NCBI RefSeq assembly: GCF_000003855.2
Contig: NW_003101664.1
Coordinates: 1,240,878 to 1,304,877 of the forward strand
Reading direction: 5' to 3'
Length of the DNA stretch: 64,000 nucleotides
DNA from: Blastomyces gilchristii SLH14081
Taxonomy: Eukaryota; Ascomycota; Eurotiomycetes; Onygenales; Ajellomycetaceae
The translations under genes and the position numbers were made by a program. The notes under the pieces were generated by a model that made no database searches, was not told the origin of the DNA, and saw only the letters and a program-made list of their open reading frames with translations. This document shows, in pieces, positions 11,925 to 56,032 of the stretch. How positions within the stretch are numbered: the stretch's first letter is position 1; every line of letters starts with the position of its first letter.

Positions 11925-11925
11925 A

Positions 11926-12006
11926 GCCAGCGTGGCCCAGTTGATAAGACTGGTAACCAAGGCTGCACACATTAGAGGTGCGTGGGTTCGAATCCCACCG
12001 CTGGCA
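11926..12006 (+). tRNA. tRNA-like head with Pol III A and B boxes (probably not a functional tRNA)
   Basis: The acceptor stem pairs perfectly over 7 bp (GCCAGCG with CGCTGGC), followed by a discriminator A. The T arm is a perfect 5-bp stem (GTGGG/CCCAC) around TTCGAAT. The B box GGTTCGAATCC (11985-11995) is an exact consensus match and the A box TGGCCCAGTTGA (11933-11944) is near consensus. The D stem has a mismatch that a G-to-A change could explain. No convincing anticodon arm with a U33-anticodon loop can be drawn in the 31 bases between D and T arms. It is therefore best read as a tRNA-derived promoter, as in SINEs; a tRNA pseudogene is the alternative. Confidence 0.6.
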
Positions 12007-18139: not shown

Positions 18140-18391
18140 ATAGAAGATACTCAAAAATGTTCTTCACTGAGATTGATTTATTTATGAATTTGAAGAGTTT
18201 CTCTGTCATAGATGCAGAGAATAATGTCTTATAAGTAATTAATAAGTTCTCTAAAACTTCATTTATAGAAATTATTCATGATTCAGATAACTGCTTCTGA
18301 GTGTCTGCAGTAGAGTTCACAGAGATTAAAGTATATAAGTTTCTAGTTCTTTTAGTTATAATAAGCAGTTACTGACTGACTGAGCTTGAAA

Positions 18392-18479
18392 TATAAGAAT
18401 AAGTGCTCACAGATGATTATTCAGGTGTTTACAGCTTGATATGATATATACTGTTAACTACTAGAAGTATTTATAATAG
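18392..18479 (-). repeat. Truncated 5' LTR of gypsy-A copy 1 (88 bp)
   Basis: Matches positions 5940-6027 of the 3' LTR, with C-to-T and G-to-A changes, then stops abruptly at 18479 where LINE sequence begins. The rest of the LTR and the right-hand TSD are absent. Confidence 0.88.
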
Positions 18480-23818: not shown

Positions 23819-24076
23819 TGTAAGAAATCCCGCTTCTTGCGGATCCTTTACCCCTATTCCTATCTCTCGCATAATCAATAGGGCTAGCGGCCCTTGGCTA
23901 CACACAACTATATAGACTGGAGTTCGCGAATACTATTTATAGCTCAGCTTGAATACTATTATACATTTGATTTCTACATTTTATCTTTCTACTGCAAATA
24001 CTTCTAGTAGTTAACAGTATATATCATATCAAGCTGTAAACACCTGAATAATTGCCTGTGAGCACTTATTCTTATA
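23819..24076 (+). repeat. 5' LTR of gypsy-A copy 2
   Basis: Begins TGTAAGAAATCCCGCTTCTTG and ends CTTATA (ancestrally CTTACA). The outer half keeps CCCG, GCGG and TAGCGGCCC; the inner end is depleted of CG and CC. The 3' LTR shows the reverse, so damage faces inward in both. Confidence 0.94.
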
Positions 24077-24108
24077 TTTCAAGCTCAGTCAGTCAGTAAT
24101 CACCTGTT

Positions 24109-29000: not shown

Positions 29001-30791
29001 TAAAGATATTAACACTGTTATTTATGAATTCTAGTCTATAAGATGATGAGTTTCTACTGAGATGAACAGTCTGCAGTGTATGTAAGAGAAGAAGAAATCA
29101 TGTTCTTATTAAAGTTAAAAAACAGAAAATAAACAGGGCTGTGAACATAATTTAGAGATTAATAAAGAAAAAACAAAGAAAACTCACACTCACACTCTCA
29201 ACTCTCTCACAACTATCAATTTTCTTTTTCAAAGAAGCAGAGAGCATCATATCTGTAGTACAGACAATTATTGCATTTGATATGAAGACTGTTAGAAATG
29301 CACAGACTTCAGAAGAGCTGAATATCAGAGTATACACAGTTGCAGCAGAGTCTTGAAGACTGATCATCTATGTATGTGATTAGATATCTCTTACAAAGCT
29401 GTGTCTGCTCTCTCAGTTGTGCTGAAGTATTCAGCCTGAAAACAATGAGAATGTGAAGAGAGAGCTTATCTACTCAGGTCAACTTCTGTTACAAATTCAT
29501 GACATTTATATTATCTTGATTACTCAGATTTTACAGGTACTCAGAGACTCATCTCTCATTGATAATGAGATTGCAGAAATGTGCTGCAGTGTGAGAATCA
29601 TTGATAGAGAACCTAGACATATTCACATATGCCTGGTCAGAGATTGTATAAGCAGAGAGAGAGTGATTGTAGGCCTGTGAGACTGCAGAAGACACTGGTA
29701 ACACCAGAAGCTTTATAAGAACTGTTAGCTAGAATCTGTAAGGAATTACTTATGAGAAGACTTACAGCAAAGAAGAGAACTATACTGCTTGAAGTCAGGA
29801 ACTGATCTGAGAGAGGCAGAGAGTTGGTCACTGATCTGAAGATCAGGTGTGGTGATGAGACTGAGGGAGATGAAGATGCAGTTGTGAGCAGCAGCATCTC
29901 TGCTTCATCAGCTGATAAAAAGTGATCAGAGAAGTTATAGAGATGTTCATGAGAAGCTTAGTAATGACTGAATATTATTTACAAAGAGATTGAAATTGAA
30001 AAAATTTTTTATTCTTGAGAAGTTCTTGAATCAATATACAGACATTGTCAGAAATACTCTCTCTCTGTCATCTGAGTGAAAACACTTCACAGATGAATGA
30101 GAATACTCACAGTTTGTGAGAATGAAAGCTGTTACAGAAAAAGGAAAAAGAAGATGAAGTTCTACAGACAGATCTGGGATATTTATACTACTCTAGAGAG
30201 GTTTGCTTACACTGTGAATGATTCTGTGAAACAGTCAGATTACTTCAGTAAACAAGAGTGATTGTGAATTACAGGCCTGAATCTTTCTATGTGACTATAA
30301 AGAGTGATTACAGACTGTGAATATCTTGATTCTACAATTCTACAGAGTTAATGAAAGAATGAAAAATTCCTCACAATTCTATAGTATTAAAAAACAATAA
30401 TTTGTGAGAATAAGTGAAAGATTAACTTACAAATGTTTCTCTTTAATGAGAGTGATCTCACAGAGAGTGATTCACCTGTGAGATGAATCTGTGTGATGAT
30501 TACATAAGAATCTTATGAAAATGATTGAGAGTCAACTGAAACTCTTCTGTATGAAAGATGTGAGATGAATCTGTGTGATAGTCAGAGAAGAATCTGTAGA
30601 TTATAAAAAACCTTGTGAAACAAGGAACTGAGTAACAGACTCTTTTCTCTTTATAATAATAAGGAATTTTTCCTCACTGAGGTTTTTTATAGATGTAAAG
30701 GGTTTTTAGTGAGTATCACTGCAGTGCTGAGCTGACTATGAAGTCACTCAGTGAAAGGCTTCACAGATGAAGCCTTAGAGAGAGAGAGGTA
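29001..30791 (+). other. Gypsy-A post-pol region with candidate extra reading frames
   Basis: A 1.8-kb region absent from minimal gypsy elements but conserved in all three gypsy-A copies. Reading the sense strand and allowing TGA for Trp, one frame is open from about 29200 to 29900 (including 29453-29680 without a stop), and another frame from about 29990 to 30240 gives a charged segment with KRKKKMKFYRQIWDIYTTLE. No known domain (envelope, protease, chromodomain) is recognised, and a frameshift or intron between the two is possible. The antisense strand also has 70-86 codon open stretches, so coding strand is not proven. Confidence 0.5.
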
Positions 30792-31049
30792 TGTAAGAAA
30801 TCCTGCTTCTTATGAATTCTTTATCTCTATTCCTATCTCTTGTGTAATCAATAGGGCTAGCGGCCCTTGGCTACACATAACTATATAGACTGGAGTTTGT
30901 GAATACTATTTATAGCTCAGCTTGAATGCTATTATACATTTGACTTCTACATTTTATCTTCCTACTGTGAATACTTCTAGTAGTTAACAGTACATATCAT
31001 GCCAAGCTGCAAACACCCGAATAATCGCCTGTAAGCACTTATTCTTACA
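30792..31049 (+). repeat. 3' LTR of gypsy-A copy 2
   Basis: Begins TGTAAGAAATCCTGCTTC and ends ATTCTTACA. Its outer (right) end keeps CATGCCAAGCTGCAAACACC and ATAATCGCC, whereas the same positions of the 5' LTR (inner end) read CATATCAAGCTGTAAACACC and ATAATTGCC. Confidence 0.94.
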
Positions 31050-35725: not shown

Positions 35726-35866
35726 TAGACTGATTATGTGACTGTGTCTGAAACCAGAATCAGATTTTTTAATAGTCTCATTATCAATTTGTCTGATCTC
35801 ATTACATGATTTTAACATTAGATAGTAGTTTCATACTGTCTTAGTGAGACTTACTGTCTACTCTTA

Positions 35867-36124
35867 TGTAAGAAATCCCGCTTCTTGCGGATTCTTTACC
35901 TCTATTCCTATCTCTCGCGTAACTAATAGGGCTAGCGGCCCTTGGCTACACATAACTATATAGACTGGAGTTCGCGAATACTATTCATAGCTCAGCTTGA
36001 ATGTTATTATACATTTAATCTCTACATTTTATCTTTCTACTGTGAATACTTCTAGTAGTTAACAGTACATATCATATCAAGCTGCAAATATCTGAATAAT
36101 TGTCTGTGAGCATTTATTCTTACA
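35867..36124 (+). repeat. 5' LTR of gypsy-A copy 3
   Basis: 258 bp, TGTAAG...CTTACA. The outer part is unmutated relative to copies 1-2; the inner part reads CATATCAAGC and ATAATTGTCTGTGAG. Confidence 0.93.
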
Positions 36125-36156
36125 TTTCAAGCTCAGTCAGTCAGCAACTGCTCATT

Positions 36157-39100
36157 ATGACTGAAAGAACTAGAAACTTGTATACTTCAACCCCTGCAAA
36201 TCCTACTGCAGACACTCAGAAGCAGTCATCTGAATCATGAATAACTCTCATGAAAGAAGTCTCAGAGAACTTATCAATCACTCACAGAACATCATTCTCT
36301 GCATCTGTGACAGAGAAACTCTCAGAACTTATGAATGAATTAATCTCAGTGAAGAACATTCTTGAGTATCTCTCATAAAATCAAGCTATTTTTCTACAAG
36401 AAATGCTTACTGTCTGCAAACACTCTTGAACTGAGTCTCTAGACATGATCTTCAGAGATATCTGTGAACTGAAAAGAAACTTTCTTAAGCTGCAATCACT
36501 TAAGGCCATCTATTGAATCACAATCTATAAAAGCTTTTGTAAGTTTGTATTTGAAATTGACTCACAAGCCTGACTGTGTGACATGAAAGATAAAGAAGCT
36601 GTTATCTATGCAATGACAGGCCTCTATTACACTGAAGTTAAGAACTGGCTGAATTATCTAGAGAATGATTATAAGAGATCTTGATAATCTGTTCTCAAGA
36701 CCTATCTAGAGAATAAGTTAAGAGACTCTGTGAGCTGAACAGAGAACACCTGAGCTGTGATCATCAATATTAGAAAAAGAGATAAGAAATCTGATGAAGA
36801 CTACTTGTGACACTTCATGAAATTATGATGTGAATTGAGATCTGTGAAAACAGGGTCCTGGAACAAGATCTGAATGATGATATTTGTGAAGAGACTGAAT
36901 AAAGATATGCAGAACAAGCTCATTGAGTAAGACTCTAAGTTCTTGACTCTGAAGAAACTGATAACTCTCATTCATTACTTATGAATCACTGTGAGAGTCA
37001 CAGACTTATGAAGAGTGAATCATTGATCAGCTCTGCAAGGGCCAGGACAACAGAGAACAGATTTATCAGAAAAAGATGACAAGATACAGAGAGATTCATA
37101 TCTGACTGCTGAGCAGAGAGAGAGAGCTTCACAAGCTCTCATAAATAGAGTGTATAATAGAGAGATCAAGAAAAAGAGACTCTACTTCATCTATTCTAAA
37201 TCAGAACATCTCTATGCAAACTGTCTGAATAAATCAAAATAGGAATTTGAGAAGTTATAGACAGAGTCAGCAACAGCCTTCTTAAGGGCTCTGAAGCTGA
37301 TACCTGAATCTGTTACTTTCTTAATGAAAATGCTTGCTCATGAGAAGAGACTGTGCTGCAGTACTGCTGCTCTGCAAGCATGAGAAGCATTGATGAACTC
37401 AGGATCCCAGGTCACTGTGATGTCTCTAAAGCTTGTAGAGTGAATGAGCTGAAAGATGAAGACTGAGAATCTGCTCTTACAATAAGCAGAGTGTGAGAAC
37501 TCAGATCTGAGAACTAAGAGACTCATGAGAGTCATCTTTGAATTATAAGATCTCTCTGAAATCTGGAGAAGATTTGCAGAAACTGTGATTATTACAGACA
37601 TTATAGATGACATGTACTTAGAACTTACATGACTTCAAAGACACAATCTGTACATAGCTGTCTGTGAGTCAGGTTTATACTTCTGATCAGTGTTGACAGA
37701 CTTACTCACAGAGATAGAATCAGTTGATACTACAGAGTTAATTAGAGAAGACAAGCTCATCTATATAATGACTTTGTAAGTGTCTGAGAATCTTGCAGTC
37801 ATGAAAACTGAGCTTCAGATATCAGAGAAATACTGAGATCTCACAGAGATGTTCAGCTCAGTAAAGGCAGCTGAGCTTCTCTCTCATCATAAAAAGAATC
37901 TGATAATAGATTTGATAGAAGAGTAGAAACTCTTCTGAGAATCAATCTATAAGCTCTTTCATCATGAGACAGAGGTCTTATAAATCTATGTGAAGAAGAA
38001 TCTGAAGAATGACTTCATTCAATCTTCACAGACCTCTGTGAGAGCCTCTGTGATATTCATGAAGAAGAAGAATGAAGATCTCAGATTATGTGTAGACTAT
38101 TATAATCTGAACTTCAAGATAACAAAGAGCTGCTACTCTCTGTCTCTGATTGAGAATGTGATCAATCATCTCATAGAAGCTGTCATATTCATATAACTGA
38201 ATATGATCAATATATATACACAGCTGTGAATATGATCTGAGAATGAATAAAAGACTGTCTTTAGAACTGCACTGAGATTGTTTGAATATCTAGTGATATC
38301 TTTTAATCTGACTAATGTCTCTGTAGTATTTCAGTCTTTCATCAATAAAACACTTCATGTATATCTGAATGATGTGATGATGTACTTTACAAAGAAGAAA
38401 GAACACACTGAGTATATGTAAAGTGTGTTGAAGATCTTAGATGAGACAGAACTGTATGTTAAGCTTGCAAAGTACAACTTCAATGCTCACTGAATTAATT
38501 TCCTAGAATATGTAATCACTGTAGATGATATTCAGATGAAACCTTCATGAGTTGAGACTATTCTATCATGACTGAAGTTAACTAGTATTCACAAGATTCA
38601 GATCTTTCTGAGCTTTGTGAATTTCTATAGACAGTTTATCTTTGTGTTCATGAGAATCTTCTTGATTCTTACAGATATGCTGAAGAGTGAAAATAAGAAG
38701 AAGTCATTCTGTAAACAGAGAATGAAAAGATTGTTAAGAAGAGAGAACTGTGAGAACTTTCTTATCTCAGAAACTCATAAGATCTTTTACAAGATTGAAA
38801 CAGATATTCATGAATACAGTGATACTGTTTCACTTTGATCTCTTGCTCTTAATCAGATTGAAGACAGATATCTTCTTCTTTATGATTTCAGAAATAGTCT
38901 TATAACTACAGTTAAATGAGAACTGGGTTTCAGTGATCTTTTTCTCACAGAAGATGTAACCTGCAGAGATCAACTATAGCATTCATGATCAGAAGCTTCT
39001 TATAATAGTGAAATTCTTCTGTCACTGATATCACTACTTTGAGAGCCTTGTGACAGTGATTACTATTAGAACTGATTATGACAGCTTGTGATAGTTTACT

Positions 39101-41030
39101 TCAATCAAGAAACTCTCACAGTAGCAGATTCACTGAGCTCAGAGACTGAGTGAATTCTGATTCAAGATAGAATATATCAAGGAAACTAAGAACTCAGTGA
39201 ATGAACTCTCTCACAGGCCAGACTATGTTAAGAAGACCAGGATGACAGATATAGAGAGACTAGAGAAGACAGAAAAGCTTCACAGAATGCTTAAACTGAG
39301 TGTTGTAAAGAGATTGACTGAAGAGTCTCTTAATTCCCTGTGAGAGAAGAAGAGAAAGAGAGGAAAGAAGTCTGTATAACTACTCTCTATAACACTGAGA
39401 GTCAACACTCTGAAGATCTTTATGAGAATTCTTGAAGAGAGTATCTATAATCTGAAGAGTTTACAGGCTTTGAGAAGTGCTGTAGAAGACCTGATGTAAG
39501 AAGAAATAGAGTATAAGTCTTCATAAGATCTTCTATTCAGATTGTCTGAACTGCAACTGAAGAATGAATATGCTCAGTATATTTGAAAACTGCTCATAGC
39601 AGGGATCAATTCTGCAGAAATAAAGAATTAAAGAGACTTAAATAATCTCTTGTGAAGAGAGGACTGGATTTATGTGCCTGTGAATGAGTTTCTATGCATA
39701 GAACTTATTAAAAGGTATCATGACTCTTCTCTAGCAGGTCATTTTACAGATACTAGAACTCATGAGTTGCTTATAAGAAAATACTTCTGACTGAAGATAC
39801 AAGAACTTATAAAGAAGATAGTAGATTCTTACACTATTTGTCAGAATTCATGAGTAGTATGATTCAGATTATATAAAGAACTTACTCCTCTACTCATTCT
39901 GTGAGAACCTTGAAAACAGCTAGGAATGAATGCTCTTGTGAGTCTCTCTGAAAGTAAGAACATATATGATGTCTGCTTTGACAGTGTGCTGATGATAGTG
40001 AATTACTTTATTAAGATAGCACACTTTATACTCACCTGCAAGGACTTGAAGTCAAAGAATTTAACTTATATCTTCATCTGTGATGTGATTCAGTTGCATG
40101 AGTTATCTGTGAACATTGTCTCAGACAGAGAATCAATCTTTGTAGAAGAGTTCTGATCTGATCTGATAACTATACTGAAGATCTCATGAGATCTAAGCAC
40201 AGCTTTTCATCAACAGATAGATGAACAGACAGAATGTCTGATAAGTATATTGAAACAGTATCTGTGATGCTTTGTTAATTACAATCAGAATGACTGAGTG
40301 CATTGATTATCACTTACAAAGTTTGTGTATAACAACTCAAAGCATGTCAGCACAGATAAAATCCTCTTTGAGATGCTCACTAAGACTCATCTGCAGATGA
40401 TCTTGATGAATCTGCAAGAGTACACTATAGAGTGTGATGATGCCTGTGAACAGGCTGAGAGAATTCAGGAGATTCAGGAGAAAGCCTGTAAATTCTTGAG
40501 AAAGACCTAAGAGTATCAGAAGAGATACTATGACTTCAAGCATATTATAAAGAGTTTCAAGAAAGATGATAGAGTCTGACTAAGTCTAGAAAACATCATC
40601 ATGCAGAGATCTAGTAAGAAGCTGAATCTCTTATGAACAGAGTCTTATAAGATTGTAAAGAAAGTTAGCTTGCAGTTCTACAGATTGAAACTGTTATCTG
40701 AGTTATAAATATACAATGTTTTTCATGTCTCTTTACTCTACAAATATAAGAAATTCTCAGAAGAGAATTCTGTGACTCATCACTCTATTCATGAAGTACT
40801 AGAGAGTGAAAGAGAATATCAGATCAAAGAAATTGTTAACTCAGAGAAGTGAGATTATAAGCTCTGATTCAAGGTTCAGTGATAAGAATATTCTGACAAG
40901 ATGAATGAGTTCACTTAAGAATTATCTGAGCAGATAAGACATCTGCAGAAGCTGAGACATGACTTTCATACTATGAATTCTGATAAGTCAGAATAATGTG
41001 ATCTTTGCTAAGAACCTAGTTATGATAAAG
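36157..41030 (+). pseudogene. Gypsy-A gag-pol, copy 3
   Basis: Same domain order as copy 2, starting at the ATG at 36157. The zinc knuckle (about 37188-37230) has lost a Cys. The stretch 37990-38196 is an intact reverse transcriptase segment (LRLCVDYYNLNFKI). At about 38359-38372 it lacks 24 bp present in copy 2, fusing HVYLN to DVMMY, between two copies of TATATCTGAAT. The frame moves by one base between 38838 and 39926 because of an indel near 38790. Integrase is clear at 39926-40156. Confidence 0.88.
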
Positions 41031-42816
41031 ACATTAACACTGTCATTTATGAATTCTAGTCTATAAGATGATGAGTTTCTACTGAGATGAACAGTCTGCA
41101 GTGTATACAAGAGAAGAAGAAATCATATTCTCATTAAAGTTAAAAAACAGAAAATAAACAGGGCTGTGAACACAATTTAGAGATCAACAAAGAAAAAACA
41201 AAGAAAATCCACACTCACATTCTCAATCTTCTCACAACTATTAATTTCTCTCTTCAAAGAAGCAGAGAGTATTATATCTGTGATACAGACAATTGTTGCA
41301 TTTGATGTGAAGACTGTCAGAAATGCACAGACTTCAGAGAAGCTGAACATCAGAGTGTGTGTAGTTGTAGCAGAGTCTTGAAGACTAATCATCTGCATAT
41401 ATAATCAGATACTTCTTACAAAGCTGTGTCTGCTCTCTCAGTTATGCTGAAGTATTCAGCCTGGAAATAATGAGAATATGAAGAGAAAGCTCATCTGCTC
41501 AGACTAACTCTTATCATGAATTCATGATATTCACATTGTCTTAATTACTCAGATTTTGCAGATACCTGAAGACTTATCTTTTATTAACAATGAAATTACA
41601 GAAATGTGCTGCAGTGTGAGAATCATTGATAGAAAATCTAGACATATTCACATATGTCTGATCAGAGATTGTGTGAGCAGGGAAGAGATAATCATAGGTC
41701 TGCAGGGCTGTAGAAGACACTGATAACACTAGAAGCTTCACAAGAACTGTCAGCTAGAATCTGTAAGAAATTACTTATAAGAAGACTTACAGCAAAGAGA
41801 AAGACTGCACTGCTTGAAGTCAGAGACTGATCTGAGAAAGATAGAAGATTAGCTGTTAGTCTGAAGATTGAGTGCAGTGGCAGGGCTGAAAGAGATGAAG
41901 ATGCAGTTGTAAGTGATGATGTCTCTGCTTCATCAGCCAGTAAAAAGTGATCAGAGAAGTTGTGAGAACACTCATAAGAAGCTCAGCAGTGACCAGACAT
42001 TATTTGTGAAGAGATTGAAATTGAAAAAAATTTTTATTCTTGAGAAGTTCTTGAATTAATATACAGATATTATCAGAAACACTCTCTCTCTATTATCTGA
42101 GTGAAAACACTTCACAGATGAATGAGAATACTCACAGTTTGTAAGAATAAGAGCTGTTATAGAAAAAGAAAAAAGAAGATGAAGTTCTGCAGACAGATCT
42201 GGGATATTTATACTACTCTAGAGAGGTTTACTTACACTATGAGTGATTCTGTGAAACAGTCAGATCACTTCAGTAAACAAGAGTGATTATGAATTACAGA
42301 TCTGAATCTTTCTATGTGACTATAAAGAATGATTGTAGACTGTGAACATCTTGATTCTATAATTCTACAGAGTTAATGAAAGAATGAAAAATTCCTCATA
42401 ATTCTACAGTGTTAAAGAATAATGATTTGTGAGAATGAGTGAAAGATTAACTTACAAATATTTCTCTTTGATGAGAGTGATCTCACAGAGAGTGATTCAT
42501 CTGTAAGATGAATCTGTGTGATGATCACATAAGAATCTCATGAAAATAATTGAGAGTTAACTGAAACTCTTCTGTATGAAAGGTATGAGATGAATCTGTG
42601 TGATAGTCAGAGAAGAATCTGTAGATTATAAAGAATCTTATAAAATAAGAAACTGAGTGACAGACTCTTTTCTCTTTATAATAACAAGGGATTTTTCCTC
42701 ACTGAGGTTTTTTATAGATGTGAAGGGTTTTTAGTGAGTATCACTGCAGTGCTGAGCTGACTATGAAGTCACTCAGTGAAAGGCTTCACAGATGAAGCCT
42801 TAGAGAGAGAGGGGTA
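41031..42816 (+). other. Gypsy-A post-pol region, copy 3
   Basis: Equivalent to 29001-30791 of copy 2, with scattered C-to-T and G-to-A differences. A 73-codon antisense stretch (41398-41177) mirrors one in copy 2 (29367-29152). Ends with a purine-rich run before the 3' LTR. Confidence 0.5.
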
Positions 42817-43074
42817 TGTAAGAAATCTCACTTCTTGTGAATTCTTTACCTCTATTTCTATCTCTCATGTAATTAATAGAGCTAGCGGCCCTTGGCTACA
42901 CACAACTATATAGACTGGAGTTCACGAATACTATTCATAGCTCAGCTTGAATGTTATTATACATTTGACCTCTACATTTTATCTTCCTATCACAAATACT
43001 TCTAGTAGTTAACAGTACATATCACGCCAAGCTGCAAATACCTGAATAATCGCCTGCGAGCACTTATTCTTACA
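42817..43074 (+). repeat. 3' LTR of gypsy-A copy 3
   Basis: 258 bp. The inner start reads AAATCTCACTTCTTGTGAAT (mutated) and the outer end ATCGCCTGCGAGCAC (preserved). The TSD TCTTA follows. Confidence 0.93.
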
Positions 43075-43413
43075 TCTTATCATATTTTTCAAATGAGACC
43101 ATGATTTCCACTTCTCAATTCAAATTATTTTTATTGCTTTAAATGACTTTAAATCTCATTTGAGTATTATCAAAAAGCATTACTTTTTAAAAAATTAAAA
43201 ATAGTCTAAAAAAAACCTTAAAATTTCTAAAAATAGTAACTTTATGCCAAGAATGAGACTAAATAAGATTAAATGAAATCACTTTCTCATTTTTTTCAAG
43301 TCATGGTTTCATTTTAAGATCTGATATATAGTCACTTTACATGTTTTTTTGATAGTCAGTCCCAGCGGGATTCACGCCAAGAAATGTATGGGATCAGATC
43401 AAATGAGACTAAA

Positions 43414-43957
43414 TATAACATAGCGGAACTGAAGCGGTGGCTAGTCAGCGGTGTCACATAGAGGTAGTTGTTAAGAAGCTGTATGAGTGAGCTTGACTAT
43501 CTTGCTTGAATAGTGAGCTCATAGGCTACAGAGTTATTGTGAGAATATCACAGATATGATACTTAGTATACTAAGAAAATTGTATGAGACATACAGTAAC
43601 TCTTATATATATTTTAGTAGATGAAAAAACAAATCACTGACTTCTTTGATAAGAAGTCAGTATCTAGCTATTTTATATAAACAATGAGTGAATACTCTTC
43701 TTTCATTTCATAAGTGTGAATAGCTGAAGTAATACCTCAGTAACATCTCATTGTCAAGAAAGAGTAATTTACTGACCTTATATAGAAGTGAGATTCTCAT
43801 ATTCATCAATCAGATCTTTCTATAATACATCTGAATAATGTCATAGAGTGATTAAAAATCAGTTCAGACAGTCTGCAGAATGAATAAAATCATTCATATG
43901 AAAGTAATAAGCTGTGTAAAACTGCAACAGAGTCTTGACATAGCTAAGAGTATGACA
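43414..43957 (-). repeat. 3' LTR of gypsy-C (left on the plus strand)
   Basis: 544 bp, aligned without gaps to 50638-51181. The outer 70 bp keep TAGCGGAACTGAAGCGGTGG and TCAGCGGTGTCAC; the inner part is strongly depleted of CC, GG and CG. Confidence 0.93.
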
Positions 43958-45790
43958 ATGCTCTTTTCTTTAAGAATATAGTCTCTATACTCTCAAGATT
44001 ACTGGATTAGAAATTATCTTTATTATATAGTAATAATTGTCAACTGATTAACAGTGTATATACTGCATGTGATACAAAGAAATAGATGATTTTTTCTACT
44101 GACTGTGTAGATCTTTCTTTACTCATCTTCATTTAAATTAAATATGTGATAAGTGAGTTTCTTATATATCAATTTAGAATATAAAAAATATAGTTAACAA
44201 GTGACTTACAGATCTCTTATTATATTTCATTTTATATATAAAATTCTCTGTAAAAGTGATGTATTTTAGAGATAAAGTTAACAGTAGTAATAGAATTTTT
44301 TGAAAAGATCTCTCTCTCTGTGAAATATTTTTCTTTCTCTCTCTCTTCAATTGTAATAGTAAGTGTATGAAAGTATTGTTCTTGAAGAATAATAAAGAAC
44401 TTATTCTGATGTTTTCTAGTGAGTAAACATCTTCATGATGTGGCTGCAGCCTCTGTGGCTATTAAGAAAGTCAGGTTGAAGACAGAGACAGTGGCATCAA
44501 TGAGCTGCAGAAGCATCACTTTCATTGCCACATCTTCTTCTTCTTCTATATCTCTTATGGCTGTGGTGATAGTCACTGTGCCTTGCAGTGAGATGTTGTC
44601 TCTTCTGCTGATCAGTTTGTCTGTGTTCAGTTCTTTCTCTGCCTTTCTCTTCACTGTTGCAATGCCACTTCTTCTCTCAATCAACATGATAGCATATGAC
44701 CTCATGTGATCATTTGAAGAGAACCTCAGAGAGAGCTTGATTCTGAAAACAGTGACTCTGAGAAGCTTAATCTGTAGTTTCTCTCTCACAGCATATCTGA
44801 GCTCTGCTTGAGATGCTGTTAAGTTAAGTCTGCAGAGTCTCATGATTTCTTTATCTTCTCTCTGTGAAAAGGCTTCAGTGCAGTCTCTGACTGATACTGC
44901 TACTTATCTGCACTATGTCAAGCAGCTGAAGAAGAAGAAGATCTTATATACTCACTTCTTCTTTCACTTCTGTTATTTCTGTTACATCTGTAACAATAAC
45001 TCCTGTCTCTCTGTAAGTATTATCTTACAGAAAGACATTGTGTCAGCTCTGATAAGAAGTCTAGATGCTTAAGCAGTACAGAGCAAGAGTCTCAGAGCTT
45101 CAAGTGTTAATAAATTCTGTCAAGACTGAGAAGATCTCTCTTACTCATCTGTAAAAGAAGATGAAAGCATGAGTCTCTAAGATGAAAAAACATCTCAGAA
45201 TAACTGATCTCAAGAAGAGATCAGTTAGTATCACTGTTGAAAGTATCACAGAGATTAATCACTGATTGAAGAGAATCTCACTTCAATTAAAGCAGATGAC
45301 TGAGATGCTTTGTAAGTTGATAAGTTAATATTTTATGTATTTCTCATGCTCTTCTGCAGTGTCACAGCACTAACTTCTCAACAGACAAAGATATCAGTGC
45401 TGAAGACTTCAATGATGAAGAATGAGTTTAATGAGAGTATGATTGTTAATAAGTAGATTCTGAAATTCCCTCTTTTTACTTTTTCAGCAGGCTGCAGCTT
45501 TATTAGATTAGCAGTAGTCTGTGAGTTAATAATATTAATCTTTTTATTGATTTCAAATATCTCTTTTCTTTAATCACTTCAGAAATGTTACACTTGTGTA
45601 GTCTTATTAAACTTCTAAAAAACTCTTTGAGAGAAAATAGAACAAGAGTGTTATAGAGTCTATAAGACATTAGCTCATCATTATAAAATCATCTCTAAAA
45701 AATTCTTTAAGAAAAATGAGAAGTCTTAAGCAGTATTTCTTACTCAACATCTCTGATATGTAATGAGATAATCTCTACTAGCTGTCTCAT
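43958..45790. other. Gypsy-C post-pol region with candidate genes on both strands
   Basis: Minus (sense) strand: a 136-codon open stretch 44843-44433, open further upstream to about 44890, with an acidic run (RDIEEEEDVAMK) and no TGA stops. Plus strand: open stretches 44419-44709 and 44842-45072, and a coiled-coil-like segment around 45060-45320 (KKHLRITDLKKRSVSITVES, LQLKQMTEML) followed by what looks like an intron (GTAAGT at 45314 to CTGCAG at about 45360). The part 44410-44850 has more GG/CC steps than its surroundings. No family is recognised and the coding strand is unresolved. Confidence 0.45.
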
Positions 45791-45799
45791 AGCTTGCAA

Positions 45800-48700
45800 T
45801 CTCTTTCTCAGTATTTTTCAAATATTTAAGCAGTTTTCATAAATTCTCTGATAATGAATATTCTTCTTATTTCACAAGATATTAAAGCTTACTATAATAT
45901 GTTCACTTATTCAATATTTTCTTCATAAGATATTCAGTATTGTTCTCTATCTTGATATTATTCAGCTGAGACAGCTTTATTTTAGAGTATTACTTATAAA
46001 GCTTTAAATAGAAAATGTGATAAACAGAATGAATTGATTTTAATTCTGTAAGTAATTTCAACTTATATGTCTGCTTACTTATCATTCTTATTACTGAGAA
46101 AGATTCTAGTCACTGCTTACTAAGCTTCTTATATAATCTTGTTATCTTAATATTCTTTGCTGAAAGTAGTACTTGATTCTCTATCAAGAACTTCATTAAA
46201 AGATGTTTTCAATTATAGTATTTTATCTACTACTTCTGAGTGTAGTGAATGCTTTTCACTGTCTTTTCATAAATTTTATTTAAAAGTTTCAATCTCACTT
46301 TTACTTCTAACACTGAGAAATACTCTGTTCTCTGTATCTGTCTAATATTCTGACTGTCTATTTCTCTCTTTGAAACATCATTCACAATGTCACTGAGTAA
46401 TAAAGAATTATATTCATAATAAGTATAAAAAGAAGATATCTTTAAGATTGCATTCTTTGCATTGTTATATATGAATTCAGTAGTCAGAAGATGTTTTAGT
46501 CAATTATTCTGATAATATAAATAGAATACTTGAAGATGCTGTTCTAGTGTCTGATTCTGATGTTCAGTCTGATTATCTGTCTGTGAATAAAATGTAATAC
46601 TGAGAAGACATCTTATTATAAGATAATAGTAAAAAGTCAATCAGTATTTACTGATGAAGAGAGATTCTTGATCTATTATCAATGATTTTAAAGCACTGTG
46701 ATTACAAATAATGATATCTAAAAACAGGTCAGTCAATTCAGAGGCTTTAATCTTTTTATAAGTAGAAATATATCTGATTATCTTTATGAAGTAGTTAATA
46801 ATAACTAAAATTGAGTTATATTCTTTAACTCTTGTCAACTTCAGTAGATCAACTATGAAATTCATTGATAGATTCTGTCATAAGTTCTTTGAAATAGACA
46901 GTGATACTCACTTACTGTATTACTTATACTGCAGAATGTTTATTCTTTAACAGATATTATAAGTCTTAATATACTCTTTAACATCTGTCTGAAGCTTGTC
47001 TTAAATATATTTATATTTTAGAAGCTTCTCAGTCTTCTCTAACTCAAAGTGTCTCACATGAGAATTATTATAATAAATTCTCAATAACTCCTGATACATC
47101 ACTCTACTATAAGAGATGAAGACTGAACTATTCAGCAGTAGAAGTTCATATTCTTCTAGTTATCAGTGACTTGATTTCTTAGTGACACTGCCCTGCTNNN
47201 NNNNNNNNNNNNNNNNNNNNNNNNNNNNNNNNNNNNNNNNNNNNNNNNNNNNNNNNNNNNNNNNNNNNNNNNNNNNNNNNNNNNNNNNNNNNNNNNNNNN
47301 NNNNNNNNNNNNNNNNNNNNNNNNNNNNNNNNNNNNNNNNNNNNAGCTTATAATTTTCAGTGTCAGTTCTCGCAGAGATCTGAGTATCTTTCATCTGCTT
47401 TACTGAGTAAGCAGCTGCCTTTCTGATACTGTTCTGAGCTTTAGAGAATCTCAATTCTCTGTAGTCAGCTTCTTCTACAGTGATGACAGAGATTCTTTTA
47501 TAGAATTCTTCTTCACATTAATAATATTATAATTCAGTTATTTAGACAGTGTGTTGATGAGATTAAGCTGATCTGAATAATATTAAATATAGAAATCATA
47601 CTCTGAAAGCAGCTTCACTCATCTGACTTAATATTCTGTTAAGCTCTTTATTATCAAGAAGTAATGCAGATTTGCATAATCAGTGAGAACTTGCACTGAG
47701 TACTTACTACTCTGAAGATAATGTTATTAGATCTTAAAGAATTTAACAATTACTAACATCTTCTGATCATGAGTATTATATCTTCTCTGTGTGAGTGATA
47801 ACTTCTTAAAGAAGAAGATCACTGATCTTTATTCACAGTATCTTATAGACTCTGTGAAAAAGTCTTCTTTCACAGATAATTCATTATCTATTTTCTCAGA
47901 GATAATTATTCTCTGATTCTTTCAATGTTGAAAGATCTTTAATATCAACTGTGAAAAGATTTCATAGATCTTATTTCTGAATGTATCAGTCTTACACTGA
48001 CTGAGTAAGTCAGAGTCAAAGTAATTCAGTATTATAATATCTATGAAAGCTTATTTCAATTCTGCAAACATCTACACAGTATCTTGAATAAGAATAAATG
48101 ATTCTGTTTTTCTGTCTTTTATACTTCTCTTTAACAGATCTGTAAGAAGAGCAGTAATTCATGAATATATATAAAGGAATTATCTGTAGAAATTCACAAA
48201 TTCTAGAAATATCTATATCTCACAGTACATCTGCAGTGCTGATCAGTTCTCAATGACAGAGACTCAGCTTCTATTTATTGAAATGCTGTTCATCTCAATA
48301 ATATAATCTAAGAAATCAATCTCCTGCATGTAGAATGAGCATTTTTCAGTGTTTATATAGAGTTAATACTGTCTCAAGTGACTCAATACTTCTCAAACAT
48401 GAGTATCATACTCTTTCTCTGATTTCAAGAAGATTAAAATGTCATTCAGATGTACTATGTAGAAGACATTGACAAGATCTCACAGTATCTCATTTATATA
48501 GATCTGAGAGATGACTGAAGTGTTATAAAGATTAAAAGATAAAACAAGATATTCAAAATTACTGCACTTAGTATAAAAAGTCATTTTTCAAATGTTGTCT
48601 TTATTAACTCTGATTCTATGATAGATATTCTGTATATTAATCTTTGAGAACATCTTTGCTTCAGATAATCAATCAATCATCTTATTAATCAATAATAATG

Positions 48701-49480
48701 AATAGTGATTCTTAACTATCATTTTATTGAGACCTCTGTAGTCTATACATAGATATAGTCTATCATTCTTCTTGAGTATAAAGAGTATAGATGTCTCTGC
48801 TGAACTCTTTGATAAATGTATTCAGTTCTTTGATTATACTTCTTTAAGATATTTATACAGAACATTCAATTTCTTTACAGACAAGTTATAAAAAGATCTG
48901 TATAATATTATTATACTGTCTTCAAGATAAATCTTATATTATATCTTGATATTAGAAAACTTCACTACTTCTCTTTCTAAAAAGATATTCTTAAAATCTG
49001 TAAAGAGATGTTGTGTACATTCATCTTCAATAACAGATACTGCTGCTAATCTTGCAGTGAGAGTGATGACTTCTTCATCTATTCTTAAGTCTTAATTATC
49101 TACTATACAGTATATCAACTCAATCTTTTTCTCAAGATTCTTTTAATAAAACTCTTCAGATTTCTCTATCACTGTCTCTTCATTAGTAAGGTGATACTGA
49201 CACCTGAATGACTCAGTCAATGAGAGGATTGTTTTCTCTCAATTACAGAAGATCTAGAATGACATTCTCATCTATGATATTAACTATATGAAGAAGCAGA
49301 CTGCTCTTCTTAAAGATTTCTTCTGAGTCTGTGATCACATACTTTGCTTAGATTATGTTAAAATAGTGATATTTCATTCTATTAGTAAATTTTATATGAT
49401 CTGACAGATCTATCTTCTTTCAATTCTTTATTAAAGAAAAGGAATAGAATATGAAGTTAGTATTTATCTCAGAGTTGAGT
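45800..49480 (-). pseudogene. Gypsy-C pol
   Basis: On the minus strand, in order: protease-like region (about 49450-49250), reverse transcriptase (about 48800-48370; DRLYLCIDYRGLN, FEYLVLSFNLYNTS, HLNDILIFLKS at the YxDD site), RNase H (about 48050-47500, including the gap), integrase core (46865-46641; MNFIVDLLKLT, IIDQESLF) and chromodomain (about 45960-45800; YLMKKILN...YLVK with a TGA for Trp, then EEYSLSENL). A chromodomain on integrase directs insertion to heterochromatin in related elements. TGA stops dominate. Confidence 0.87.
47198..47344. other. Assembly gap (147 N)
   Basis: A run of undetermined bases within gypsy-C pol. Open frames reported across it are artefacts. Confidence 1.
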
Positions 49481-49559
49481 AGATATCTCACTGATATCTT
49501 CTTATTTAAGATATGCATTGTGATTATAACATGAACTTAGAGATGTAAGAATTGTCAAT

Positions 49560-50330
49560 TCTTTTCTTTCTCTTCTTTATCTTCTACAGATATGTTTGCT
49601 AGAAGAGAAGTTAACTTTGAGAAGATATCTTCTCAGTTTCTTCTCTTCTTCAGCTTCTTACAATCACTGATATAGTAATTACCAACTCTGCAGTTGAAAC
49701 AGAGATCTTTATCAAATCTTTTTTAATATTTCTTCACAGTGAGTGAAGAATCAGAATACTTGAAATTCTTCTTTACTTTCTCTACACTGAAGCTATCACA
49801 GTACTGTTTATATTCTATCATAAATTACTTAGAAGAGGTCTTATTAATCTTTTTCTCAGAGAATTGATTATTTAAATAGATTCAGAAAGTCAGATTGACA
49901 AGCTCAGTATAATTAATTAATAAACTCTGATATTATAATATTATTATTCACATCTTATAAGTCAGCTTTATAAGATAAAGCTGTGTTTTTAATTAATTCA
50001 AATTATTAGTTAATTTCTCTCAATATTCTTCAAATCTTGCATTGAAATTGAAAGAATTCTTATTATCTTATTAATATAATGAGTTAAACTACTATATTAC
50101 TGTGAAGCTGCAGTTGCAGTGATCTTTGATTTAATTCAGTAGAAAGTTCTTGAATTCTTCTTAAGTTATAATAGTATTAATACACTCAAGCTCTCTCTTC
50201 TTAATAACTCAAGTAGTTGCAGAGATGTCTTTAAGAAGGTTGACAGTGTATATTACTTATATCTCATAAGTATTATACTGACTCAGATTAAGATGGAATT
50301 TTCATTCAAGAAAATAGACAAAGCTGTGAA
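49560..50330 (-). pseudogene. Gypsy-C gag
   Basis: The minus strand near 49705-49650 reads DLCFNCRVGNYYISDCKK, a C-x2-C-x4-Y-x4-C knuckle whose His has become Tyr by a C-to-T change. Upstream to about 50330 lies a degraded gag-like frame with many stops. It precedes pol in the expected order. Exact start not determined. Confidence 0.7.
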
Positions 50331-50637
50331 ATTCAGATAAGATATTTTTCTTATATCTCAGTGAATCTCTGATCTTAATCTCTCTATCTTTATAATAGAT
50401 GTAGATGTGTAGAGGCTGTGATAATAATAGAGTGATTAAAGAGCTCATATTAAAATATACAGTAGATTCAGAAATCTCAGATTTCTGTTAGAGTAGAGAT
50501 ATACACACTCTAGAAAATAATATAGTGTTTTCTTTAGAGAGTGAAGTTAAGTTAGTCTCAGTACAGATGTATAAGACTATATTAGTCTGTTAGAGCTTGA
50601 CTGATTCAAATATATAATCAGATTAAGTGATTTAAAT
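50331..50637 (-). other. Gypsy-C leader
   Basis: Region between the 5' LTR and gag on the minus strand. No ORF and no recognisable primer binding site after RIP. Confidence 0.4.
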
Positions 50638-51181
50638 TATAATATAATAGAACTGAAGTAATGACTAGTCAGTGATATTATATAGAGATAGTTATTAAGA
50701 AGCTATATAAGTAAGCTTAACTATCTTACTTAAATAGCAAGCTTGTAGACTACAGAGTTATTATAAGAATATCACAGATATAATACTTAGTATACTAAGA
50801 AGATTATATAAGATATACAGTAACTCTTGTATATATTTCAGTAGAAGAAAAAATAAATCACTGACTTCTTTAATAAGAAGTCAGTATCTAGCTATTCTAT
50901 ATAAATAATAAGTGAATATTCTTCTCTCATTTCATGAGTGTGAATAGTCAGAGTGATATCTCAGCAGTGTCTCATTACCAAGAAAGAGTAATCTGCTGAC
51001 CTTATATAGAAGTGAGGTTCTTATATTCATCAATCGGATCTTTCTATAATACATCCGAATGATGTCATAGAGTGGTTGGAAACCGGTTCAGACAGCCTGC
51101 AGAATGGATGGAATCATCCGCATGAAAGTGATGGGCCGTGTGGAACCGCAACGGGGCCTTGGCGCGGCCGGGAGCGTGACA
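50638..51181 (-). repeat. 5' LTR of gypsy-C (right on the plus strand)
   Basis: 544 bp. The first 400 bp (inner) are fully RIP-converted, then at about 51035 the sequence switches to a GC-normal state (GGTTGGAAACCGGTTC, CGCGGCCGGGAGCG) up to its outer end. The matching part of the left LTR is converted, so the ancestral state can be read off directly here. Confidence 0.93.
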
Positions 51182-51225
51182 CTAAACATGAAATTCATGA
51201 TCCCGGCGGCCAGTCTAATAACTAC

Positions 51226-51889: not shown

Positions 51890-52397
51890 GATTCTTATTC
51901 TCAACTAAGACAGAAATTAAATACTTAATAAACTTTCTATTAGAAACTTAAGCAGCTACAAGAAAATGACTAAATTCAGAAATATTTAAATATGAAGAGA
52001 AGAAAATTAATCAGATATAGTCTGTTAAAACAGCTATACACTATCTTTTAATATTTTATTTTATTATAGTCTCTCTTTACTTTACATTTTCCTTTTTATT
52101 CTTTTCTATCTATTTATTTAATATGTCTATCTTTAAGACTATGTTCTCTTTTCTTTTATTATGATATTGTTAAATGATTTCAAAGTATCAGAAGATGTTA
52201 AAATACTGCAATTTCTAAACAGTTTTTATATTCTAAGCTGAAATTTTCTGATTTTATATATCTAAAATTGATAAATGTATAATAGTTGACTTTATAAATA
52301 TAGAACAATCCCTGAGAACTAAAAGTTCTCAGACAGATATCATAGTCTCTGACTGTATACATCTATAATTAAATAATAATAATAATAATAATAATAA
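51890..52397 (+). mobile_element. LINE copy D, right part
   Basis: Continues the LINE from position equivalent to 1439 of copy A: end of ORF2, 3' UTR with hairpin at about 52310-52330, and an (AAT)n tail at 52372-52397. More strongly mutated than copies A and B, consistent with being older. Its tail abuts gypsy-C internal sequence, so it was inserted in an older gypsy-C copy. Confidence 0.9.
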
Positions 52398-52966
52398 ACT
52401 ATACTTTTAAAGAGAAGAGTATTATTATATCTCTGACTATATTAATACTCTGTTATAGTTTTATACAGTTCATTACTTTTCTATAAATGATTTTATTTAT
52501 TTCATGAATTATTTAAACTGATTTTCAATCACTCTATAGTATTATTTAAATATAATATAGAAAGATCTGATTAATAAATATAAGAATCTCACTTTTATAT
52601 AAGATTAGCAGATTACTCTTTTATAGTAGTAAGATATTACTAAGGTATCACTCTAGCTATTCTTACTTATAGAATATAAGAAGAGTATTCACTTATTCTC
52701 TATATAAAATAGTTAGATACTGACTTTTAATTAAAGAAGTTAGTAATCTGTTTTTCTTTTACTGAAATATATACAAGAGTTACTGTATTTCTTATATAAT
52801 CTTCTTAGTATACTAAGTATTATATCTGTGATATTCTTATAATAACTCTGTAGTCTATGAGCTCACTATTTAAGTAAGATAGTTAAGCTCACTTATACAA
52901 CTTCTTAAACAACTAGCTCTATATAATACTACTAACTAGTTATCACTTCAGTTTCATCATATTACA
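52398..52966 (+). mobile_element. Old gypsy-C copy: 25 bp of internal sequence plus 3' LTR
   Basis: The reverse complement matches 43414 to about 43982: the 544-bp LTR (52423-52966) plus the first bases of the internal region. It is the most degraded gypsy-C LTR, with both edges converted and almost no CG, CC or GG left. It forms the outermost layer of the nest. Confidence 0.88.
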
Positions 52967-53519
52967 TTATTATTAAAAGTCAGTATTTCAGAGATAAAAG
53001 ATAATGAAGAATTTATTAAATTAAAATAAATAGATTCTGTAAATAAGTATTAACTCTGCTTTTCTTTATTCTGAAGCTTCTTTATTATCTTATTATTAAA
53101 TTTCATACTCTGATAAAAACTGATCTTAGTCTTATCTTATAACTCAGAAATCTTCTTATAATAAGTAATTATTCTATTAATAAGTTATCTAGTAGAGTGA
53201 GTAATTTTAAATCTTGAGCTGAACTCTGAAGTAATAGATATATTACTTATATTAAGATGACTCTACTTCTTCTAGATATATAAAAACAAAGATAATATTC
53301 TTCATAAAGAGAATATACTTTTTCAAAAGTATATAAATCTACTAACTAATAAATTTAGAGAAAATGAAATATCTCTAATAAAAAGTAAGAGTCTTTTTAA
53401 AAAAGATAAACTACTCTTATCAAAAATATTGATACAATGTTCTAAAAAGAAAAACATGCTATTCAGGCTATAACCTGTAGAATAGTTTAAGGTTGTATTG
53501 ACAGATCTATTCACAAAGA
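52967..53519. other. AT-rich relic, unassigned
   Basis: Highly AT-rich sequence with short open stretches only. No match to the other elements in the window was found by eye. CG content begins to recover near 53460. Probably the flank of the old gypsy-C, or a dead transposon. Confidence 0.35.
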
Positions 53520-54234
53520 GCATAATATAGTGGTGGGTCACGTGATCTAGTGGGATCGCTAACCGCAACGGCCGTAACGGCCAACAGTTAGCGATCACCG
53601 ACTGTGGAGCGGGGGCGGAAAAGTAAGGGAGAGGAAAAGAAAAAAGGGCTCAAATGCCTGTGCCAAAATAAGGGTGATAATATCAACAGGAGAGATGGGA
53701 GGTTCTGTACGGAAACATCAGGTTTCAAGATTTGTCCCTCCGAATTCAAACATCCAGCGCTTGACTCTTTGATAGTTTAACTACCAGATAAAACGGCGGG
53801 ATCATCACAATCATTCATTTTCAATTGGACGTGATGTCAATTCCTCTCTGCTCTGCCGGTTGAAATTAAAATAAAAGTAAAATAAAAGTAAACATCTCGG
53901 TCACTCACTCGGTAAATTCTTCGTGTAATAAAATTAGAGTCAGGCATTCATCTTTGCCTCTGAAGCTTCCACAGGAGTCCCGTAGTCCCGGGTTATGCAC
54001 ATACATATTAGCTGATGTAAACCATATCCAAGTTACAACTCCGAAGTTACTCATGTTGGGCCCATTTTATAAAACTTACTGCCACAGATATACTAGGTAT
54101 CGAGCTTACAATTATATTCCATGCACAAGCGGATGACGAGGAAATCAGAAGCATACTAATAATATATAGAGAACAGGTAGGAAGCGGAGAGAAGTATTTC
54201 ACATAATGTCTCGTAATGTCTCGTTGGGCTCATT
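53520..54234. other. Start of normal-composition island, no gene found
   Basis: GC rises abruptly at about 53530. Features seen: GGTCACGTGATCT at 53536-53548 (also in the copia left end), a perfect 10-bp inverted repeat GATCGCTAAC/GTTAGCGATC at 53554-53596, and a small tandem repeat AAAATAAAAGTAAAATAAAA near 53870. No convincing coding region. Confidence 0.5.
53554..53596. repeat. Perfect inverted repeat with 23-nt GC-rich loop
   Basis: GATCGCTAAC (53554-53563) pairs with GTTAGCGATC (53587-53596); the loop contains CGGCC twice. It lies exactly at the switch from AT-rich repeat to GC-normal DNA. Confidence 0.8.
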
Positions 54235-55021
54235 TCATGGGATCAACTCATAGCTCCCTTGCAGCTCAACAATCTTCGCGATTCCCCTTTTGTGAGCTTC
54301 CCTCTCCTGGATCCGACTCACATATTCCGTGAGGTAAGGGTGTTGTTCCTTGTTGATCAAGCCTCGCAGAACCCCTGCCTCCAGCGGGAAGCTCATCAAA
54401 ATGTCCGAACCCGTGAGGATGTCTCCGCAGAGGAATAGACCCTTCCCTGGCGATGATTTGAGTTGGTCTTCTAGGAAGCTGAGGTTCGTCGCCAGGTCTG
54501 ATTTTACTAAAGCCGAATGTAGTTGAGAAGCTATCATTTTTGTTACCGGTCTGATGAAGAAAGGCACGGGCGCATCTCGAATTCCTTTGGAGTCTTGTCA
54601 GCCATTGTTTTCCCCAATTAATCCGGAGTATATTAAACCCCCTTACCTTCGACAATGAGCATTCTCATCAATAGGCCCATCAGAGACCTTCGGCATAGTG
54701 CATGAAGTACCGATCACGCCGCCATGATTCTGTCTCACCCCCTACTTGACCTTCCTTCCCATCAATATATCGCTGAGGAATTAAATGCGGGCCAAAATGG
54801 TCGACTAGATACTCGACGATAGTAGCAGATTCGCAGAATTCCACCACAGTGAGCTCTCGACGATATGACTGAGATTTCCCTAGAAGGTGATTTCTCAGCT
54901 CGGCGCAGCAGCATGTCTTGTCCCGTTTGAATAGTTTATCTGATATGATAACTAGCTCTTCTAGAAGCCAGATGATGCGTGCGCGCGGGACTTTTTCCAA
55001 CCTGTTGCACCAGTCAGTCAA
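54235..55021 (-). pseudogene. Glutathione S-transferase-like gene, frameshifted
   Basis: The minus-strand protein matches fungal GSTs that conjugate glutathione to electrophiles. N-terminal thioredoxin-like part: RIIWLLEEL, FKRDKT, LLGKS, ESATIVEYLVDHFGPHLIP, then GKEGQVGGETESW and FMHYAEG. After a likely 53-bp phase-1 intron (54646-54594, GTAAGG...CAAG), the alpha-helical C domain follows: PFFIRPVTKMIASQ, FLEDQL, GDILTGSDILMSFPLEAG, YVSRIQEREA, stop at 54235. About 40 bp before the intron (near 54686) one base is missing, so HYAEG runs into a stop although the next frame continues with GLLMRMLIV-like sequence. Parts of the N terminus also deviate from the family. Not caused by RIP, which makes substitutions only. 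Confidence 0.8.
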
Positions 55022-56032
55022 GGAAAAAACGCCGACTTAAACAGTGCCCAGAGAAGCAACATAAAATCCAAGTAGACTGTAATCTTCACAACACTATCTA
55101 AACCGGTCGCCATCTTGGCAGAGCAAACCACATTCGAGGATTCCTAGCTCTATGGTCTTATTCCACCGAGGGATGTTAAGTTCGCGCGAGAAAGGAAAAA
55201 ATGCGTCTATGTAAATAATTGTTCAGCAATATGGGGATCTTCTGCTTGAGTTCATCAGCTTTGATGTCAACTAGATCTCCCCTAGCTAAAAAAAAAGAAC
55301 GAAACCTGAATGTTGCTGCCTACGTAGGTCACTGATGAATATTTTGGATACGACACTAGTGAAGATTTCAGGAAAATAGCACTCACTCTCTTCCAAGTTC
55401 TTGACATCGCAGTAGCTGTTAAAAAGCTCCACCTCTGTTTGACATCTGGACAGCTTCAGAGGAAGAAGCTTGATTATACATATAATAATATCACCGATGT
55501 TCGCAGTCTTCCCGCCCATATATATATGTAAATATATGAGACAACTATACTACGTACCTTAGTTATACTCAACACATAGATTCCACAGCATGAAACACTG
55601 AAAGCTGATTGTTCAAACCGCCTCTGCAAAGTTGTGCCACTTGACCTCATTACATAATCATGACCCCGACCTTGTTGGCCGTTCCGGCCCAGGAAGCAGA
55701 AAATGTTGGGGGTCCCGCGGTTGGTCGGCCCTTCTACCAGCAGGCGCTGGTGGTGATTGAGCTCTTTTGTCCCAGTAGCCTACAGATTATGAGACTGTTA
55801 AGCATGAGCCCTGCTGTGATCAACATGCATGGGTTCAATCCCAGAATGAACTTAAAAATTTGTAACAAATACTCTGAAAATTTTAACAGTGTTAAGAGAC
55901 ATCTCAGAAGTGTGTTCTAGAAGTTTCATGAGCTCTAGAACTGACTGAGTTCACTATTAAAAAAAGAAGTCATTGTGAAGAGGCCACTGAAGAGAGTCAC
56001 TGAGAGAAAGTACTGTACTCTGTGATAGCTGG
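55022..56032. other. Island sequence upstream of the GST relic, no clear gene
   Basis: Contains a 77-codon ORF on the minus strand (55519-55286) and an 86-codon ORF on the plus strand (55660-55920); neither resembles a known protein. A B-box-like GGTTCAATCC at 55832-55841 lies in GC-normal sequence but no tRNA fold is supported. From about 55850 the composition turns AT-rich again up to the hAT. Confidence 0.4.

Follow-up and report, generated by a model that had tools for sequence, protein, structure and literature searches.

Repeat-induced point mutation (RIP) in Neurospora crassa is RID-dependent, converts C to T and G to A on both strands of repeats and takes CpA first; the repeats of Coccidioides show loss of CpG. 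A preference for CpA is common to RIP-like defences (PMC12543289), and a gene closely homologous to RID and Masc1 is present in Aspergillus (PMC2432034). The CpG signature in Microbotryum and Tuber has been linked to deamination together with methylation by Masc2-like genes (PMC4352252). In Podospora, most solo LTRs and fragments of the crapaud element carry few or no RIP mutations, and the LTRs of its full copies fall into a high-GC and a low-GC group (PMC10787394). This pattern fits a dependence on homology length; an outer/inner polarity of LTRs is absent from the searched text of that paper. The GC-poor tracts of Blastomyces are dominated by low-GC (~30-31%) gypsy elements (PMC4595289), and the accessible main text of that study names repeat-induced point mutation in a reference title only.

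The window analyzed here is a 64-kb stretch of the Blastomyces gilchristii genome (C19:1240878-1304877; 74.8 Mb in 75 contigs) that contains several nested repeats (Table 1). A first-pass annotation described the gypsy-C element as intact in the outer part of each LTR and converted at the same positions on the inner side of the opposite LTR. This polarity is borne out by both the column conversion and the CpG positions of the two LTRs, each 544 bp long. Conversion in the 5' LTR is 0.24 in columns 1-60 and 0.55 in columns 441-543, and the corresponding values for the 3' LTR are 0.70 and 0.12. The only CpGs of the 5' LTR are at 43424, 43435, and 43449. Both 20-mers quoted in the annotation are present, at 43421-43440 and 50645-50664. 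The polarity was also claimed for gypsy-A, and most bins of its five window LTRs agree. In columns 1-30, the outer copies are converted at 0.17 and 0.25 versus 0.58, 0.58, and 0.67 for inner copies; in columns 201-230, inner copies are at 0.75 and 0.75 versus 0.12, 0.25, and 0.00 for outer copies; and columns 231-256 are less clear (inner 0.33 and 0.50 versus outer 0.33, 0, and 0). The outer ends of gypsy-B have CpGs at 4099, 4102, and 4154, as judged by CpG positions and repeat limits only. The terminal 200 bp at the outer ends of the three full-length window elements hold 35 of their 37 CpGs in 5.4% of their length (binomial p = 3e-42, which is nominal since CpGs cluster).

Table 1. Repeats of the window and their parts, in window coordinates
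Feature	Position	Strand	Remarks
gypsy-A copy 1	5942-11925	-	Outer end at 5942 spared
LINE with 745-bp GC-rich head	11925-16975		Interrupts gypsy-A copy 1; rest of copy 1 at 16976-18479
gypsy-A copy 2	23819-31047	+	LTRs 23819-24074 and 30792-31047; outer ends spared
Inverted-repeat element, first piece	35726-35866	+	Hosts gypsy-A copy 3 and gypsy-C
gypsy-A copy 3	35867-43072	+	LTRs 35867-36122 and 42817-43072; outer ends spared
Inverted-repeat element, second piece	43075-43413	+	CpGs 43366 and 43375 near end
gypsy-C LTR retrotransposon	43414-51181	+	TSD CTAAA at 43409-43413 and 51182-51186
gypsy-C 5' LTR	43414-43957	+	Left tip to ~43480 spared; right part converted
gypsy-C 3' LTR	50638-51181	+	Left part converted; right tip 51035-51181 spared, 11 CpGs
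Inverted-repeat element, last piece	51187-51214	+	CpGs 51204 and 51207
gypsy-C 5' LTR fragment	52394-52968	-	Tip unspared: 0.71 in columns 1-30, 0.64 in columns 31-60

Two other parts of the window retain CpGs. The stretch 53541-55745, which lies between mutated repeats, has a GC content of ~0.45, holds 93 of the 208 CpGs of the window and is probably a gene. The CpG-rich stretch 17765-18137 within gypsy-A copy 1 has an 89% identical match in the flank of another extracted locus (L055), making it a further short repeat that retains CpGs.

Comparing the identical LTR column in the outermost and in the inner position separates the effect of location from that of sequence. Copies of gypsy-C were collected with the internal sequence adjoining the 5' LTR (30 loci including that of the window, of 40 matches listed) or the 3' LTR (20 loci after that of the window, of 40 matches listed), so that the damage pattern would not select the copies; these sets are samples from the best matches rather than a census. 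The LTR itself was rejected as a query because it carried the damage pattern: all 30 loci cut out, of 40 matches listed, were 3' LTRs, and they served as a labelled comparison only. The gypsy-C LTR has 225 variable C/T or G/A columns of 543. Columns 1-60 are converted at 0.36 in the 30 5' copies, where they are outermost, versus 0.66 in the 20 3' copies, where they are inner (p 2.5e-8), and columns 441-543 show the reverse (0.58 in 5' copies versus 0.24 in 3' copies, p 3.3e-8). The middle of the LTR (columns 201-340) is the same in both (0.47 versus 0.48, p 0.98). Within single copies, a comparison of different columns, the tip is less converted than the inner part in 29 of 30 5' copies, and the right tip is less converted than the left part in 20 of 20 3' copies.

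The second family behaves similarly. Its LTR is 256 bp long, and the sample comprises 20 5' and 20 3' copies, from 40 matches listed per query. Outer versus inner conversion is 0.11 versus 0.49 in columns 1-30, 0.29 versus 0.58 in columns 31-60, 0.06 versus 0.24 in columns 61-90, 0.09 versus 0.46 in columns 201-230, and 0.08 versus 0.37 in columns 231-256 (p < 1e-3 in every bin that differs), and these 40 copies show no outer/inner difference in columns 91-200. Sparing of outer ends is thus real and genome-wide, and in two LTR families it follows position in the duplicated segment, outer or inner, rather than sequence. The spared patches are not randomly placed. The annotation had also stated that the two LTRs of one element are mutated on opposite halves, and mirror images are found in six of the seven gypsy-C elements for which both LTRs are available: that of the window and, paired by coordinates, L035/L002, L036/L010, L040/L074, L042/L064, and L127/L128. 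The non-mirror pair, also matched by coordinates, is L044/L129.

The shape of the transition is a ramp. Binned at 30 bp, outer conversion in gypsy-C starts at 0.3 (right) or 0.5 (left) of inner conversion and reaches parity with it across ~240 bp, and ramp length is ~60-250 bp, varying with family and side. Two elements of the first-pass description need correction here: conversion declines gradually rather than at an abrupt boundary, and a mutator that works only beyond a fixed distance is not supported, given that the ramp varies by side and family and is lost in some copies. The idea that the machinery acts by position inside a duplicated segment is therefore supported in its polarity and unsupported in its fixed distance. 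A literature search, conducted largely outside subscription journals, found no description of an end ramp, and the portions of PMC11969663, PMC7862722, and PMC3017866 that were available contain nothing on repeat edges; novelty of the ramp is provisional.

Surviving CpGs trace the same ramp. Inner parts of the gypsy-C LTR keep CpG in 0 of 883 site-copies (0/625 and 0/258), these columns having turned into TG, CA, or TA, and ~2% of inner CC and GG pairs are left; outer parts keep CpG in 194 of 541 site-copies (129/271 and 65/270). Since CpG is erased from inner parts, and CpG and CpC are the preferred targets (see below), surviving CpG is an alignment-free marker for little-mutated DNA. By 20-bp bin from the outer end, CpGs per 1000 number 62, 43, 1.7, and 0 at gypsy-C 5' ends, and 153, 60, 50, 33, and 28 at 3' ends, with at most 5 past 100 bp. 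CpG is thus near 0 past 60 bp on the left and past ~130-200 bp on the right. Per 1000, inner ends have 0.0 CpG and 0-4 CC or GG, mid-LTR sequence has 0.2-0.7 CpG and 8-9 CC, and the DNA directly outside gypsy-C has 3-8 CpG.

As in RIP, C>T and G>A transitions affect both strands and cluster in repeats. Transitions between copies amount to ~14% versus 0.7% (5' LTR), 1.1% (internal), and 3.2% (3' LTR) for transversions. The order of targets is CpG and CpC first, CpA third, and CpT last. It can be read in the lightly mutated head linked to a LINE (nine copies; CpG 0.14-0.29, CpC 0.11-0.17, CpA 0.01-0.03, CpT 0.00) and, at C columns with an invariant neighbour, in the inner LTR at saturating dose (CpC 0.81, CpA 0.44, CpT 0.10) and in a ~509-bp element (CpC 0.55, CpG 0.43 at 3 sites, CpA 0.20, CpT 0.04). 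The classical Neurospora preference for CpA was not found; CpA is mutated but ranks third, and CpT is rarely hit. B. gilchristii resembles Microbotryum and Tuber (PMC4352252) in losing CpG as one of the main targets, and differs from them in that CpC is mutated nearly as much, CpA is mutated too, and a RID-like gene is present. At CpG and at CC/GG neighbours, adjacent target sites are mutually exclusive (correlations of ~-0.3 to -0.5); target sites more than a few bases apart show no correlation among gypsy-C LTR copies.

Three DNA-methyltransferase genes are found in the genome (L123, L124, and L125): one with a BAH domain (DIM-2/Masc2-like), one of the DmtA type (RID/Masc1-like), and one further gene whose match contains two stops, perhaps introns. 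DmtA is the name of the Aspergillus homologue of RID and Masc1. The DmtA-type gene has an open 608-aa frame and, judged by sequence, is a candidate RID/Masc1-type gene as in Neurospora; its predicted protein shares 87% identity with a Blastomyces protein that bears the name DmtA and is 87-89% identical to those of B. dermatitidis, B. parvus, and B. percursus among the best 120 of 243 matches listed.

Together, these observations are probably best explained by a C-to-T process akin to RIP, triggered by homology and declining in dose at the limits of the homology that copies share, a reading that we hold with moderate confidence. Such a system would detect repeats by homology and convert C to T on both strands, favouring CpG and CpC, with the dose at each base a function of the surrounding shared homology. 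The interior of a 7-8-kb element would receive a saturating dose that takes inner-LTR CpG to zero, while at its ends homology to other copies would stop at the unique insertion junction and the dose would drop over ~60-250 bp. The limiting factor would be the end of homology pairing, a RID-type methyltransferase may be the enzyme, and mutation may take place before meiosis. The edge of homology, rather than the physical end of the element, would then be decisive. The mirror-image damage of the two LTRs suggests that a base must have matching DNA to either side to be mutated. The transcript of a retrotransposon copies the inner parts of both LTRs, so an intact tip cannot be inherited by transposition from a mutated parent; the outer tips therefore show the element as it was when inserted, and its damage is of later date.

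How far the tips are protected depends on how heavily each copy was mutated. Across the 30 gypsy-C 5' copies, tip conversion follows inner conversion (rho 0.73, p 4e-6), a dependence on per-copy dose that further counts against a fixed distance. Tip conversion shows no increase with transversion divergence (rho -0.31, p 0.10), to which inner conversion is negatively related in these copies (rho -0.37, p 0.04). Because of this behaviour, tip sparing is a matter of dose. A different account is time since insertion, with the same process acting more slowly at tips and sparing a mark of young copies only. The tips of the most mutated copies do fill up, as this account requires, but the lack of any increase with transversion divergence opposes it, and a slower rate at tips would itself need explaining; we regard it as very unlikely.

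The copies also vary more than shuffled columns predict, an excess that fits unequal dose, relatedness, or the divergence of one copy (L068). The same excess, together with the many copies that have intact tips, counts in favour of a restoration of the tips by gene conversion from unmutated copies. However, the less converted part lies on the outer side in all 20 3' copies and in all but one of the 30 5' copies, the fall-off is smooth, site by site, no correlation is seen between sites separated by more than a few bases, and conversion tracts would reach the ends of homology least often. Replacement of tips by gene conversion, which the annotation had named as a possible source of the pattern, is accordingly extremely improbable.

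Sparing is indifferent to whether the element abuts a known repeat. Nested gypsy-C 5' ends, defined by a flank of up to 25 bp that matches another window repeat, are converted at 0.37 (n=15) versus 0.37 (n=14) for the others (p 0.74; the window copy is left out, and the others have non-matching flanks that may still be repeats). Host DNA adjoining nested insertions shows no sparing: the share of transition differences from window homologues in which the host has kept C/G is 0.40 over the first 50 bp and 0.36 at a distance of 500-1000 bp. Unspared host flanks fit hosts mutated before the insertion, and they lend no positive support to a homology edge. These data also bear on the possibility that methylation or H3K9 marks peak in the middle of a transposon and fade at its ends, with deamination of methyl-cytosine following the marks. 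The published link of a CpG signature to methylation and deamination (PMC4352252) and the predicted BAH-domain methyltransferase, as in the DIM-2/Masc2 class, are in its favour, but ends abutting known repeats are equally spared, and since nested insertions are flanked by mutated host DNA, their tips do not border open chromatin. The near-equal mutation of CpC and CpG and the mutation of CpA are likewise unexpected for it, and we judge it distinctly unlikely.

If the homology edge is decisive, copies with a common junction should lose protection; such copies give mixed results. Three copies stand out as exceptions: L044, which is unspared at both ends (5' tip 0.75; 3' tip 0.58 over 33 columns), L068, whose right tip is converted at 0.62, and the gypsy-C 5' LTR fragment of the window (Table 1). 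Eleven gypsy-C 5' junctions (L044 and a pooled ten) were used as queries, and junction-spanning relatives were found for 3 of 11 among the matches listed. All of them are separate insertions ~4-15 bp apart in a common host repeat (L042/L130/L131, L039/L132/L133, and L044/L127), which suggests an integration-site preference. Tips at these near-coincident junctions are raised in one trio (0.56, 0.44, 0.66), ordinary in the other (0.31, 0.28, 0.28), and split in the pair (0.75, 0.19). A shared junction was rejected as the cause of the unspared L044 tip, as its partner is an independent insertion ~10 bp away with a spared tip. For the unspared gypsy-C fragment in the window, no junction-spanning relative was present among 40 matches listed.

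Elements of other kinds extend the comparison. The sequence flanking gypsy-C, annotated in the first pass as a hAT terminus, instead terminates an inverted-repeat (MITE-like) element of ~509 bp whose ends read TAGACTG...CAGTCTA. In seven copies taken from the flanks of loci already extracted, CpG and CpC sites are converted at 0.53 in the centre, 0.36 within 40 bp of the ends, and 0.36 at 40-100 bp. The centre exceeds the outer 40 bp in 7 of 7 copies, a comparison of different sites, and in one copy the 40-100-bp zone exceeds its own centre. The edge effect is weaker than in the LTR elements. This element is relevant to transcript-bounded targeting, in which an RNA guide or a transcription mark would direct mutation to the transcribed R-to-R part only and leave untranscribed U3 and U5 spared. 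The outer ends of LTRs lie outside retrotransposon transcripts, and the spared ends of both gypsy-C and gypsy-A fit this proposal. The ramp is graded, though, with no step at a start site, and in the ~509-bp element, too short for autonomous coding, conversion is lower over the outer 40 bp than centrally in all seven copies (at different sites). Targeting by transcript is unlikely.

The 745-bp head and its LINE have a different history. At least 40 copies of the head are found among the matches listed, and in all 9 copies examined the head is joined to the LINE at a different point (window coordinates ~12675, 12871, 14236, 15120, 15492, 15650, 15834, 16422, and 16578). The window copy, the one copy checked, has a 13-bp target-site duplication, ACTCTATTCATAG, at 11912-11924 and 16976-16988. 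Fusion of a 5' RNA copy to a LINE whose cut point varies is a feature of the MINE (WEIRD-MGL) chimeric retrogenes of Magnaporthe, which these elements resemble (PMC2104539). By eye the head has a tRNA-like start, although ARAGORN, run with bacterial settings, detected no tRNA anywhere in the window. LINE copies, each truncated at a point of its own, show no consistent sparing at the cut ends, a test of low power because the LINE has almost no CpG and little CpC. The head retains much CpG and CpC even in its own middle and is rich in CpC throughout, and edge distance alone is therefore not the rule. Transversions between head copies are 0.0018 versus 0.007-0.032 in gypsy-C and 0.003-0.005 in gypsy-A, and head copies look younger. 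Apparent age thus confounds length when the weakly mutated 745-bp head is set beside the mutated ~509-bp element.

A broader formulation, offered tentatively as quite possible though still somewhat doubtful, is that the mutation dose would be a continuous function of flanking shared homology with a reach of ~100-250 bp, so that one mechanism, in a lineage that prefers CpG and CpC over CpA, may lie behind the sparing of ends and of short repeats as well as the mirror-image LTRs. Where the LTRs of a pair carry their mutations on opposite halves, insertion dates based on LTR-LTR divergence mislead. Clusters of CpG flag transposon ends in such genomes, and the outer tips retain more of the sequence that preceded mutation. 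Recognition of homologous duplexes without breakage is an open question for which RIP is among the few readouts. LTR retrotransposons offer a natural assay with an internal control, as the same 544 bp lie at a homology edge and in an interior in many copies. If the proposed mechanism is true, every LTR pair would measure how far a homology-sensing machine looks on either side of a base.
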